Positions 1,170-7,934 of a stretch of 9,501 nt of DNA are shown here, piece by piece. The stretch comes from a bacterium. GTDB lineage: Bacteria; UBP15; UBA6099; JAJRTR01. The stretch covers positions 1-9,501 of the forward strand of contig JAJRTR010000048.1 in NCBI GenBank assembly GCA_024278215.1. The letters run 5' to 3'. The position numbers and the translations under genes are program-made. A model generated the notes under the pieces. It searched no databases. It had not been told where the DNA came from and saw only the letters and a list, made by a program, of their open reading frames with translations. Position 1 is the first letter of the stretch; every line of letters begins with the position of its first letter.

Positions 1170-1234
1170 AATTTCCGCATTTCTTTGTGAGGATTCCGGG
1201 CCGGGGGCAATACATTGCAGTCCCTCATATAAAA

Positions 1235-1403
1235 GAGCCAATTGTAAAATTATGTTCGTAGCGAGGTCGAACGAAATTATTCAGAAACAAGGCGGAGGTG
1301 CAAAATCCCCGCAGGCGTACTTGCAGAGTACGTTGAGGAAGATTTTGTGCCGACCACGCTGCTGTTGACAATTGCAGCCGAATCAGAATTTTGCAATTGG
1401 CTC
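1235..1403 (+). repeat. Intergenic inverted-repeat element, copy A (169 bp)
   Basis: The left end is GAGCCAATTGTAAAATT and the right end is AATTTTGCAATTGGCTC, terminal inverted repeats matching at 16 of 17 positions. Inside, GGTGCAAAATC pairs with GATTTTGTGCC, and CGTACT with AGTACG around a 5-base loop. The whole unit can thus fold into a long imperfect hairpin. AAAA flanks it on both sides. It has no coding capacity. It fills most of the gap between the dehydrogenase and the 3' end of the binding-protein gene, ending 6 bases from that gene's stop codon. The same element recurs at 2572 and 4821. Confidence 0.9.
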
Positions 1404-1409
1404 AAAAGA

Positions 1410-2711: not shown

Positions 2712-4550
2712 GTGAAGAACGGCATTGTGACAAGACTTACGATAATAATCGGCCTTATGGTGCTGCTTACCGCCGCCATAGTGTACTATGGTTCCGATAT
2801 GCGGTTTTCCCTGCTGTACAGGTCCCAGAAAGAAAAACGGGTGACATTTCTCGCGCGGTCAATGTCGTATGGATTGAAAAACATCCTTGTGTCGGCAGGC
2901 TCGGAAAACGAAGTGTCGCGGCTTGTCGAAAATGTCATGCGAAGCGCGATGGCTAACGATCCTACGATAACAGGTTGCAGGGTGGAGAATAAGGAAGGCA
3001 AAATACTCTACAACTTCCTGATGCCGGGCGCGGGGGCGCGGGGCGCGTCAAGTGTGAGTGTGGATGTAAAGTCCGAGACGGGCAGGATAGGCACGATCAC
3101 ACTGTACTACATACACAACGACATCTTTTCCGATGAGAAAACACAGCAGGTGGTGGCGATAGCGGGCACAATAGCTTCAATGGTGACTTACCACATGAAG
3201 CGATTCGATTTTTTCCAGGTCAGGTTCCTTGCGGAAAAGATCATCGAGGAAGACCCTGATGTTATCTACAGCGAGGTGACCGGCCCCGGTGACAGGGTTG
3301 TGTACTCGCATAAAATGGAAGAGTTCAAGGATATGCTTTCCGAAGAAGTTAATCGGACATCCGCCGATGTCAGCCCGTTGCAGCCTGTTGTAGTGCAGGA
3401 GATAGGCGAGATAGGCGATTATGGGCGGGTAGTGGAAGTAGCGGTGCTTGTGCACGAGGGAAACCGCCGCCTTGGTGTTGTGAGAATCGGATATTCGACG
3501 GCATCGCTCAACAGAGCCATGGTGAATTCGCGGCGGATACTGACACTTGTTATCGCGGGGATAACGCTGCTCGCGCTGGGCCTCGGCATCGCGCTTGCCC
3601 GCAGCATCGCGCGTCCGCTGGTGGACCTCACGGATGTTGCGCGCACAATATCACCCGAGGGATTCACTGGCGACGTGCAACTCGAAAAGGCCGCGAAGGA
3701 GATCGAAACGCTCAAAGCTTCTTTCACCGACCTCGGCGACAGGCTTTCCTCTCGCCGGGACGAGATCGGCGCGCTCGCCACTTCCTTTAAAGACCTTGTT
3801 GTCGCACTCGACACTTACATAAAACAACTGAAGGTTTCCTACCGGCAGATCAGTGTTGCCGACCGCCTCTATGCCATGGGACAACTCACAGCCGGTATCG
3901 CACACGAAATAAATAATCCCCTCACTATCATTTCTACATACATACAAGTCATGCTCAAACGCGATGACATCGACCCGGAAATGCGCGGGGAGCTCGATAC
4001 AATAAAAGAGGAAATAGCGCGCATCGCCGAAAGAGTGAGCGAACTGCGCTCGTTTACACAGGAAACGCAATTCGAGTTTGCTACGATCGACCTGCATTCC
4101 GCGCTGAATAAAACGCTGTCGCTTTTCCGCTACCAGATAAATAAGAAGGGCGTCACTCTCAAAGCGGAATTCGACGATCAGCCGGTGTTCGTTACGGGCG
4201 ACGAGGGCAAACTGCGCCAGGTTTTTCTCAACCTCATGCTGAATTCGCTCCAGGCTATGGCCTACTCGGAAACAAAGGTGCTCGCAGTGGCGACCGAAGT
4301 GACTGAAGCCGAAGTCAGGATACATTTTTCAGACACCGGCTCCGGGATCGACGGCAAAGAGATGGACCATATTTTCGACCCGTTCTTCTCGACAAAAAAG
4401 GGAAGCGCGGGCACAGGGCTCGGACTTTCGATCAGTTACAGCATAATCGAGACACACAACGGCACGATCAGGGTCGAATCGACACCCGGCGAAGGCGCTA
4501 CATTTACGGTAATACTGCCGCCTGCGGCTGAAAACGACATCCAGAGTTAA
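2712..4550 (+). CDS. Membrane sensor histidine kinase with HAMP region (orphan)
   Basis: A 612-residue inner-membrane kinase. Transmembrane helices lie at about residues 8-26 and 276-296, enclosing a ~250-residue periplasmic region. Two similar stretches there (about 85-138 and 185-268) each end in a G-x-(I/V)-x-x-I/R-x-x-Y strand, suggesting a double Cache/PAS-like sensor. A HAMP region follows (297-370) with an apparent second copy of its second helix. The phosphoacceptor is His398 in AGIAHEINNPL. The ATPase domain shows the N box (LRQVFLNLMLNSLQAM, about 501-516), G1 (DTGSGID, 541-547), the F region (DPFFSTKKG) and G2 (GTGLGLSIS, 567-575). The HEINNPL form is typical of NtrB-like kinases that partner sigma54 regulators, but no response regulator is in the window. 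The start is a GTG with a weak upstream site, and no better start precedes the first membrane helix. A bidirectional hairpin at 4604-4632 follows. Confidence 0.93.
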   Translation: MKNGIVTRLTIIIGLMVLLTAAIVYYGSDMRFSLLYRSQKEKRVTFLARSMSYGLKNILVSAGSENEVSRLVENVMRSAMANDPTITGCRVENKEGKILYNFLMPGAGARGASSVSVDVKSETGRIGTITLYYIHNDIFSDEKTQQVVAIAGTIASMVTYHMKRFDFFQVRFLAEKIIEEDPDVIYSEVTGPGDRVVYSHKMEEFKDMLSEEVNRTSADVSPLQPVVVQEIGEIGDYGRVVEVAVLVHEGNRRLGVVRIGYSTASLNRAMVNSRRILTLVIAGITLLALGLGIALARSIARPLVDLTDVARTISPEGFTGDVQLEKAAKEIETLKASFTDLGDRLSSRRDEIGALATSFKDLVVALDTYIKQLKVSYRQISVADRLYAMGQLTAGIAHEINNPLTIISTYIQVMLKRDDIDPEMRGELDTIKEEIARIAERVSELRSFTQETQFEFATIDLHSALNKTLSLFRYQINKKGVTLKAEFDDQPVFVTGDEGKLRQVFLNLMLNSLQAMAYSETKVLAVATEVTEAEVRIHFSDTGSGIDGKEMDHIFDPFFSTKKGSAGTGLGLSISYSIIETHNGTIRVESTPGEGATFTVILPPAAENDIQS

Positions 4551-4600: not shown

Positions 4601-4632
4601 AAAAAAAACACCCTTAAACTGAAGGTGTTTTT
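4601..4632 (-). terminator. Rho-independent terminator, best on the minus strand
   Basis: AAAAACACC (4604-4612) pairs with GGTGTTTTT (4624-4632), and the stem can extend by two A-T pairs past a bulged C. On the minus strand the stem runs into a tract of eight T residues (4608-4601), a canonical terminator about 35 bases past the stop codon of the 16-codon ORF. On the plus strand it could also stop the kinase transcript, with the T-run inside the stem. Confidence 0.75.
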
Positions 4633-4667
4633 CCTTAATGCGATTTTAGAATACGTCCAATAGCGAT

Positions 4668-4718
4668 CTATTTGCCTTTGGGACGCGGTTTCGGGGCAGG
4701 TCTCCAGCTTGTCATCAT
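4668..4718 (-). CDS. Putative 16-residue basic proline-rich peptide
   Basis: The predicted peptide is MMTSWRPAPKPRPKGK, with six Lys/Arg, four prolines in an alternating x-P pattern, and no acidic residue. I do not recognise it. The case for translation is its setting. AGAGGTGA ends 7 bases before the first ATG and closely matches the Shine-Dalgarno consensus. A strong promoter with a 17-base spacer (4756-4784) sits upstream, and a terminator (4601-4632) closes the unit about 35 bases past the TAG. The second ATG could be the start instead, giving 15 residues. There is no signal peptide or membrane segment, so it would stay in the cytoplasm unless exported by another route. The PRP-type composition recalls ribosome-binding proline-rich peptides, but that is only a resemblance. 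The transcript of about 150 bases could instead act as a small RNA. Moderate confidence that it is expressed, low for any function. Confidence 0.5.
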   Translation of the reverse strand: MMTSWRPAPKPRPKGK

Positions 4719-4737
4719 ATCGTTTCACCTCTTTATA

Positions 4738-4755
4738 AAGGATTTCTATATCCTT
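4738..4755. promoter_or_regulatory. Palindrome over the transcription start of the small-peptide unit
   Basis: On the minus strand AAGGAT-ATAGAA-ATCCTT is a perfect 6-bp inverted repeat. It starts immediately after the -10 box, so the expected transcription start (about 4749) falls in its loop. That position suits a repressor operator. It overlaps a second perfect palindrome, CTTTATAAAG (4731-4740), next to the ribosome-binding site. Confidence 0.45.
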
Positions 4756-4784
4756 ATTTTATCCTAAATAGCGACTTTAGTCAA
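4756..4784 (-). promoter_or_regulatory. Strong sigma70-type promoter for the small-peptide unit
   Basis: On the minus strand TTGACT (4784-4779) and TAAAAT (4761-4756) each match five of six consensus bases and are separated by exactly 17 bases. The expected start is about 4749, some 30 bases before the ATG. No other minus-strand gene could use this promoter, because the terminator at 4601-4632 closes the unit. Confidence 0.7.
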
Positions 4785-4820: not shown

Positions 4821-4998
4821 GAGCCAATTACAAAATCATGTTCGTAGCGAGGTCGAGCGAAATTGTTCAGAGCAAGGCGGAGGTGTAAAATCCTTGCAGG
4901 CGTACTTGTAAAGTACGTCGAGGACGATTTCGCGCCGACAACGCAGCTATGGACAATAGCAGCCGACCGCAGCAGAATCAGAATTTTGCAATTGGCTC
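4821..4998 (+). repeat. Intergenic inverted-repeat element, copy C (178 bp)
   Basis: The longest copy. The left end is GAGCCAATTACAAAATC and the right end AATTTTGCAATTGGCTC, matching as inverted repeats at 15 of 17 positions. The central stem is CGTACTT/AAGTACG around GTA, one pair longer than in copy A. Next to it GGTGTAAAATC faces GATTTCGCGCC. Relative to copy A it carries about ten extra bases (ACCGCAGCAG region) near the right end. It lies between the promoter at 4756-4784 and the 3' end of the pilin-like gene, ending 14 bases from that gene's stop codon. The flanks are TGTA on the left and GGTA on the right. Confidence 0.9.
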
Positions 4999-5012: not shown

Positions 5013-5516
5013 TTATTCCTGCCTGTACTCGTCGGGAATATCGGATGCCGTGTACGGATCAGCATAAATCTTTTTGTCATCCGATACGTAAGTGTATATC
5101 TTGTTGTCACGGCAGTATCCGAAAAGCTCGTATGAATCGCCGAAGGATGTGTCGATTCTCATGACGCTTCCTGTTTTCGGGTCCCAGTATTCTGTATTAT
5201 AGACATATCTGTGTATGGTCTTGTGCCTGTTGAAGAATTCGTCGTCGAGATAGTAAGGATATTTGCCCTGATCGAGCATATCCGCGTCGAGCGCTTTCAC
5301 AACTTGCTTTATCGCTTTTTCGCACTTCATGCCGACCTGCTTGTTCGCCATAAATTTTTTTTCCGATTTCTCATTGACTTCACGCAGTTGGTTGACAGCG
5401 AGCCAGCCGACGACGACAACGGCGACAAAGAGAAAAAGAATCAATGCGACGGCGCCTCGATCATTATTATTTTTCGACGGTTTCAGATTGATCTGTTGTC
5501 TGTTTTTTTCATTCAT
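5013..5516 (-). CDS. Single-pass membrane protein with pilin/TadG-like N-terminus
   Basis: A 167-residue protein. A basic, Asn/Lys-rich N-terminus of about 20 residues leads to RGAVALILFLFVAVVVVGWL, one hydrophobic helix at about 21-43, then a ~125-residue polar domain presumably outside the cytoplasm. The helix start resembles both Tad pilus proteins (RGAVAV...) and prepilin cleavage sites (G followed by a hydrophobic helix), but the Glu5 of true type IV pilins is absent. The segment at about 65-91 (AIKQVVKALDADMLDQGKYPYYL) resembles the helix and GxYP turn of GspG-type pseudopilins. These are family resemblances, not a firm assignment. The start is the ATG at 5516, preceded by AAAGGA 9 bases upstream. 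The longer in-frame extension overlaps the upstream gene and lacks such a site. It lies 13 bases downstream of the nucleosidase-fold gene and is surely co-transcribed. Confidence 0.75.
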   Translation of the reverse strand: MNEKNRQQINLKPSKNNNDRGAVALILFLFVAVVVVGWLAVNQLREVNEKSEKKFMANKQVGMKCEKAIKQVVKALDADMLDQGKYPYYLDDEFFNRHKTIHRYVYNTEYWDPKTGSVMRIDTSFGDSYELFGYCRDNKIYTYVSDDKKIYADPYTASDIPDEYRQE

Positions 5517-5529
5517 GGAATTATTCCTT

Positions 5530-6569: not shown

Positions 6570-7934
6570 TTAATGCCCATTCCACATCTCGAGGCGGTCG
6601 CGGTAGTAGACCTCGATGGCCTCCAGGTTCTGCCAGCCCTGGCCCTTGAGCAGGTTCATCACATTCACGGCGAAGAGTTCCTGCACAGGCAGATAGCGGT
6701 CATAAACATCATAAGGGTCGCCCCGGGTCTCGTCGGGGGTGTCGTCGAGTCCGACGATGAGGTAGACATAGTAGAGGACATACTGGTTCATATCGGAGTA
6801 TCCGCTATCGGAAAGTGTGACGGTGGTGGTGTGCAGACCGTCGATAGTCGACGTCCATGTTTCCGTGATGGACGCCGTTGTCCTGTCGATGAGATAAGAG
6901 TGAAGCGGCTGGTCGTCTTTTTCGATATTGACTTTCACTTTGCCGCTGATCAGGGTTTCATCCTTTATCAGTTCTACAAAAAGGTAGGGCTTTGTTTTGC
7001 CTTCTTTATAGAAGAAGCGCTGGAGACTGTTCTGGTCCGGGTCGAGCATCTTGATGTATGAATCCATGAGAGAGCTGGAGCCGAGGAAGAATTTGCAGAA
7101 TTCGGCGGAAAGCAGGTAGGCGATGCCGCCGACCGTAGCGCCGTCTGCGCTCTTGAGGTGCGCCCACTTCATCTGTGCGAAGTCCAGCCACATGGGATAA
7201 GTGCCTTCGTTCTCATCGATATAGAGGTCGCCGTCGTTGTCGCCCCCCTGGTAGAAACGGAACTGGCGGCGACCGCTCTCGATACAGTTGAAATCACAAT
7301 TCACCGTTATGTCCACTTTATAGTAGCTGCCCCATGAGTCGGTGCCGTTTTCGGCGACAACCTTGTAATCATATTTGTATGTATCTAAAGAATACAGAGA
7401 ACCGAATATCGTGTAGTCGGGAGTGGTGAGAGAACGGGCGCGTTTGATGCTGTAGGGGCTGGAGTGCGACAGCGCCGCGCAGACCCTGTTGCCTGAATAA
7501 TCCGGGAGGGAATCCATATACTGATCGAGCGCGGGTCCCGTGACGATCTCGAGTTCGGCAGGAGAATAGCCGGTGCCTGAAGCGGAGATGCAGAACCGTG
7601 TGCCGGAGACGAACGGCAGACCGTCGGGCTGTATGTCGTAGACCTTTCCGATCAGTCCGGACGGTCGGCCCGATGTGTAAAACCGTTCGGCGACAGTCAC
7701 AGTCTGGGTATCCGCAAGCGATGCTTCGAGCATGGCGGAACCGGCGAGAATGGTAGTGGTGACAGGTCCGACATCTGTGGAAGCAAGCGACTTAAGCGCA
7801 TATACGCCGGAAGCAGCGACAGGGTCGGACGCATCGCCGCCGCCCCCTCCGCAGCCCGCCGCCGCAAGCAAAACAGCGACCAGAAAAACACTTAACGCCG
7901 CTCGTGATAATGTTGATTCCGTGATGGCCCTCAC
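6570..7934 (-). CDS. Putative lipoprotein with EF-hand-like loop
   Basis: A 454-residue protein with a classic lipoprotein signal peptide when started at the GTG at 7934: MRAITESTLSR, a hydrophobic stretch, then LLAAAGC with Cys28, followed by a Gly run typical of a flexible linker. It should be lipid-anchored in the outer or inner membrane. At 232-243 DNDGDLYIDENE fits the EF-hand loop (acidic residues at 1, 3, 5, 9 and 12, Ile at 8), so Ca binding is likely. Residues about 90-170 (VYDIQPDGLPF, then a Ser/Pro-rich strand and CAALSHSSPYSI) resemble ZU5-like domains of bacterial surface lipoproteins, which is inference. Four further Cys (115, 152, 213, 217) plus one at 280 could form disulfides. 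In-frame ATGs at 7979 and 7997 put 15 or 21 extra residues before the signal peptide and lie upstream of the -10 box at 7943-7948, so I rejected them. Confidence 0.8.
   Translation of the reverse strand: MRAITESTLSRAALSVFLVAVLLAAAGCGGGGGDASDPVAASGVYALKSLASTDVGPVTTTILAGSAMLEASLADTQTVTVAERFYTSGRPSGLIGKVYDIQPDGLPFVSGTRFCISASGTGYSPAELEIVTGPALDQYMDSLPDYSGNRVCAALSHSSPYSIKRARSLTTPDYTIFGSLYSLDTYKYDYKVVAENGTDSWGSYYKVDITVNCDFNCIESGRRQFRFYQGGDNDGDLYIDENEGTYPMWLDFAQMKWAHLKSADGATVGGIAYLLSAEFCKFFLGSSSLMDSYIKMLDPDQNSLQRFFYKEGKTKPYLFVELIKDETLISGKVKVNIEKDDQPLHSYLIDRTTASITETWTSTIDGLHTTTVTLSDSGYSDMNQYVLYYVYLIVGLDDTPDETRGDPYDVYDRYLPVQELFAVNVMNLLKGQGWQNLEAIEVYYRDRLEMWNGH

Follow-up and report, generated by a model that had tools for sequence, protein, structure and literature searches.

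On its minus strand, the window (the whole stretch of 9,501 nucleotides that was analysed) carries a monocistronic gene for a peptide of 16 residues, and comparison with related genomes of the candidate phylum UBP15 shows that its amino-acid sequence is under strong purifying selection. The micropeptide gene is almost certainly real, and the original prediction, in which a very small, basic and proline-rich peptide is encoded by a self-contained gene, is strongly supported. Selection is thereby proven, by comparison, for a free-standing gene with only 14–16 codons, far below annotation limits.

Composition of the transcription unit

The unit extends from position 4784 to 4601 and consists of, in that order, a promoter, a Shine-Dalgarno sequence, a 16-codon ORF (MMTSWRPAPKPRPKGK) and an intrinsic terminator. 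All four parts had been predicted, with the strand left unstated. The sigma-70-type promoter (4756–4784) matches at 10 of 12 positions and has a −35 element TTGACT (4784–4779) and a −10 element TAAAAT (4761–4756), separated by a 17-bp spacer. Further downstream are the Shine-Dalgarno sequence AGAGGTG (4726–4732) and the ORF (4668–4718), which reads ATGATG...AAATAG and in which codons 4706–4671 specify the core WRPAPKPRPKGK. The core contains three lysines, two arginines, a single tryptophan, four prolines alternating with other residues, and no acidic residues. Inspection of the 16 residues revealed neither a signal peptide nor a hydrophobic stretch; a type I toxin of the Ibs kind, which would be a hydrophobic membrane peptide, was rejected on the latter ground.

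The terminator (hairpin and U tract, 4601–4635) has a folding energy of −15.3 kcal/mol (z = −2.5). A simple terminator scan missed this hairpin (4635–4601), probably because the T tract pairs with an upstream A run. With an A run on one side and a T run on the other, the terminator is probably bidirectional and may be shared by the convergent histidine kinase gene downstream (2712–4550, plus strand); the earlier statement that no other gene can use these parts is not strictly true. The whole arrangement was also sought by a scripted search for a promoter, a Shine-Dalgarno sequence, an ORF of at most 30 codons and a terminator, which detected a single unit in the window; in 300 dinucleotide-preserving shuffles there was none. 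Genes this small can be found from the DNA sequence alone when promoter, Shine-Dalgarno sequence and terminator are read together.

The palindrome that had been noted at the expected transcription start is present just past the −10 element (AAGGAT-TTCTAT-ATCCTT with an N6 centre, 4738–4755), but it is imperfect and has no counterpart among the relatives' loci that would mark a conserved operator; it is therefore probably incidental or species-specific.

Conservation and occurrence of the peptide

The peptide was sought in seven UBP15 genomes, that is, the genome of the window (G000) and six relatives (G001 to G006). With a back-translated pattern, exactly one copy of WRPAPKPRPKGK followed by a stop codon was found in each of six of the seven, representing three families, and a DNA search of the relatives matched the coding part in genomes of the same order. 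The relatives are metagenome-assembled genomes, and the invariance is seen across four independent lineages. The peptides are 14–16 residues long: the N-termini vary (MMTS, MRSE, MD and MRE; 2–4 residues) and the next 12 residues are identical in the six genomes. Within the core codons 10 sites vary, through at least 12 changes, all of them synonymous and none at a second codon position (p about 1e-7, computed with 26% of random changes being synonymous). For this test four independent lineages were used, G001, G003 and G004 being counted once since they have a common codon set. The check for synonymous change in relatives, set in advance by the original prediction, was thus clearly positive.

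FtsZ is 63–76% identical to that of G001 across the lineages, and the pilin-like protein encoded next to the peptide is 18–36% identical to that of the window. The invariance of the core can therefore not be ascribed to recent ancestry: none of its residues has been replaced in the time in which FtsZ diverged by between a quarter and a third. Upstream of the ORF, all relatives have a promoter of the same class (spacer of 16–17) with the −10 sequence kept, as well as a strong Shine-Dalgarno sequence (GGAGGTG or GGAGG); the remaining flanks have diverged. A clear hairpin terminator is also located after the ORF in G002 and in G005, but no clear one was seen in G001, G003 and G004. Antisense coding over the core was considered and rejected, as the open frames range from 24 to 135 codons and do not agree between lineages.

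G006, which belongs to the same genus as G001, lacks the peptide locus. Its ftsZ is 100% identical to the G001 copy, which is located about 1.2 kb beyond the G001 peptide gene, and its contig ends inside ftsZ, toward the missing locus. Gene loss was thus rejected in favour of an assembly break. The absence in G006 is uninformative, and the peptide is present in all six genomes in which its place is assembled.

Outside these genomes the peptide was not encountered. An exact-pattern scan of 84,980 species for WRPAPKPRPK gave five records only (ADurb.Bin236, UBP15_UBA6099, RA.bin91, USMO_maxbin.112 and DeMMO6_30). When two mismatches were allowed, only the six UBP15 genomes matched among 386 genomes. 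A profile search of 117 genomes yielded, beyond the six, only weak matches (best 19.7 bits). Six of these were inspected as possible second copies or distant homologues; they lacked the arrangement of promoter and Shine-Dalgarno sequence, which points to chance, and most ran into other sequence. Viral contigs contained no copy of the gene, and a search of phage DNA gave only chance matches of 25–31 bases. No paper containing WRPAPKPRPK was found in a literature search. As far as searched, the peptide gene is specific to UBP15, judging by these pattern and profile matches.

Proposed role of the peptide and alternatives

We consider it probable that the product is a cytosolic peptide that acts in trans on a conserved intracellular partner. 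A constitutive promoter of the housekeeping type would drive unregulated and strong transcription, and translation would be efficient, given the near-consensus promoter, the lack of a shared operator and the strong Shine-Dalgarno sequence. The product would be a cytosolic peptide of 14–16 residues in which a short N-terminal segment varies and the cationic C-terminal dodecamer is invariant; the proline-alternating core would be extended and polyproline-II-like rather than helical. The finished peptide might dock in trans via its tryptophan, its arginine and lysine side chains and the free C-terminus. The partner would be slowly evolving and largely anionic: the complete lack of change in four lineages suggests a partner that is itself almost constant, the rigidity of such a small peptide implies an exacting one, and the high positive charge makes rRNA or another nucleic-acid surface the natural choice. 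The ribosome (rRNA) is the likeliest partner, albeit a tentative one; the peptide would then be a tiny factor, either structural or associated with the ribosome. Next in likelihood would be a different nucleic acid or a protein assembly that is conserved. Rather doubtful is the further proposal that an endogenous, constitutive polyproline peptide is a permanent ribosome component or regulator throughout the phylum, perhaps positioned in the exit tunnel like the proline-rich antimicrobials. The smallest known ribosomal proteins, bTHX, bL37 and eL41, have about 24–26 residues; if the proposal is true, a ribosomal peptide of 14–16 residues would fall below them. The orphan peptide is a short, easily synthesised sequence, with which the target can be fished for directly.

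Among known ribosomal proteins, bTHX (30S protein Thx, S31e; 26–27 residues) is comparable in being tiny, free-standing, basic and lineage-restricted, and its gene usually lies away from other ribosomal genes (PMC3353972). WR, followed at a distance by RP close to a lysine-rich end, occurs in both peptides, but that of UBP15 is about half as long, proline-rich and devoid of the N-terminal part of Thx. Membership of the bTHX family, hinted at by WR...K.RP.K.K, was rejected: the G002 peptide, searched together with its upstream frame, did not match PF17070 or TIGR04560 at an E of 10, and the Thx of T. thermophilus (confirmed by its family matches) matched the bTHX profiles at 6e-18 and 8e-15. 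In a genome search for bTHX no locus of UBP15 exceeded the cut-off, and the peptide locus was not listed; the score of the alignment to bTHX was equalled by 40% of shuffled cores. No structure resembling the peptide by sequence was found in the PDB.

Against a ribosomal role stands the location of the gene outside any ribosomal operon, and its upstream neighbour could mean a role in the envelope or pilus. This neighbour (5013–5522, minus strand) encodes a pilin-like single-TM protein with a pilin-like N-terminal segment, and immediately precedes the peptide gene in five of the six genomes and in all three families (in the relatives at G001:C22, G002:C391, G003:C9 and G004:C22). The protein has no match to a Pfam family, and its similarity to pilins in NCBIfam is weak (two members, E 0.025). 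It evolves fast and has two invariant cysteines, but not the Glu5 that is canonical in type IV pilins. That the peptide is a partner or regulator of this protein is nonetheless unlikely. In G005 (80% complete) no pilin-like homologue was found, and the peptide gene has as its upstream neighbour a comM/Mg-chelatase-like gene (judged from the translation); the pilin-like protein changes rapidly and the peptide core not at all; and the peptide gene has a promoter of its own and the peptide no export signal.

The alternating prolines had led to the speculation, marked as such, that the peptide resembles proline-rich peptides binding the ribosome tunnel; it might then be a bacterially encoded inhibitor of the exit tunnel, serving as self-regulator or antimicrobial. 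PKPRP does fit the PxPRP motif of apidaecin, oncocin and Bac7, and type II proline-rich antimicrobial peptides (apidaecin, drosocin) share with the UBP15 peptide a similar length, the cationic character and a variable N-terminus with a fixed C-terminus, reminiscent of the tolerance of apidaecin to mutation (PMC11347161). The type II peptides are, however, encoded by insects and secreted, and they need a penultimate arginine and a hydrophobic last residue (PMC11347161, PMC13233979), neither of which is present in the UBP15 peptide, with its ...RPKGK end in all six genomes. The similarity to apidaecin, oncocin, drosocin or Bac7 is equalled by 6–20% of shuffled cores, so composition alone can yield a likeness of this degree. 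Membership of the type II peptides is thus not supported by these comparisons. No export or immunity gene is kept nearby, and a free cytosolic peptide of this kind would damage its own cell. Taken together, a tunnel inhibitor is quite improbable.

Equally small is the chance that the product is a precursor, either of a modified peptide or of one used in signalling (a RiPP, a microcin C-like compound or a pheromone). Very short precursor genes do exist, such as mccA of microcin C with 7 codons, which is part of a biosynthetic cluster (PMC6495379). But mccA adjoins genes for modification and export, and no conserved gene for modification or transport was found next to the UBP15 peptide gene. The peptide also lacks a leader segment, and its entire core is invariant between families, whereas bacteriocins evolve fast.

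A cis-acting leader or arrest peptide, in which a ribosome stalled within the ORF or at its end would control the terminator and so a downstream gene, as with TnaC, was considered as well. As in TnaC and ErmCL, a short ORF has its own promoter and is followed by a terminator, and the C-terminal end is invariant. The corresponding spacing in TnaC is W12–P24; here the tryptophan is 11 residues before the last residue, which is near that spacing and may be coincidence. In contrast to TnaC and ErmCL, a downstream gene that is conserved, or at least co-directional, across the lineages is lacking: the window has the convergent histidine kinase gene, G001, G003 and G004 have a gene for an HTH protein of the LysR type, followed by ftsZ, G002 has oppositely directed genes (convergent, as in the window), and G005 has a gene for a large beta-barrel-like protein (judged from the translation). 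Read-through would produce antisense RNA in two lineages, and no conservation of an alternative hairpin was found. The differing downstream genes largely refute a leader peptide, which is very improbable, and argue for action in trans. What was found instead is characteristic of a free-standing small-protein gene: its own promoter and Shine-Dalgarno sequence, in the relatives too, and purifying selection on the amino acids.

The chance that the unit is a non-coding small RNA with an incidental ORF is negligible: the transcript unit is compact, with a terminator, and translation is deduced from sequence, but every core change is synonymous, no Rfam match was found, and the unconserved flanks together with folding that, the terminator apart, is no better than that of shuffles (z of −0.9, +1.1, −0.2 and −0.7) indicate that there is no conserved RNA. 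Frameshifts or stops in the ORF of relatives with the RNA kept, the outcome that had been named as pointing to a small RNA, did not occur; it is the ORF that is conserved and not the RNA.

Other elements in the window and its genome

The genome of the window has three ftsZ-like genes (G000:C54:9428-10492, G000:C113:818-1765 and G000:C105:9267-10163), whose products share 69%, 61% and 30% identity, respectively, with the G001 query; most relatives have two.

A repeat of about 175 bases with inverted ends (GAGCCAATTGC...GCAATTGGCTC) occurs three times in the window (1234–1405, 2572–2677 and 4821–4998), one copy being shortened. One copy separates the peptide promoter from the pilin-like gene and accounts for the larger gap there in the window. 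At least 40 copies with 86–96% identity are present in the window's genome (478 candidates at first look), and none was found in the six other UBP15 genomes. This distribution marks the repeat as a recently expanded MITE-like or REP-like family.

Further along the window (6570–7925, minus strand), a lipoprotein-like protein without a Pfam match is encoded. In G002, too, the pilin-like gene has such a gene just upstream, encoding a homologue with 43% identity, which indicates that the neighbourhood is old.
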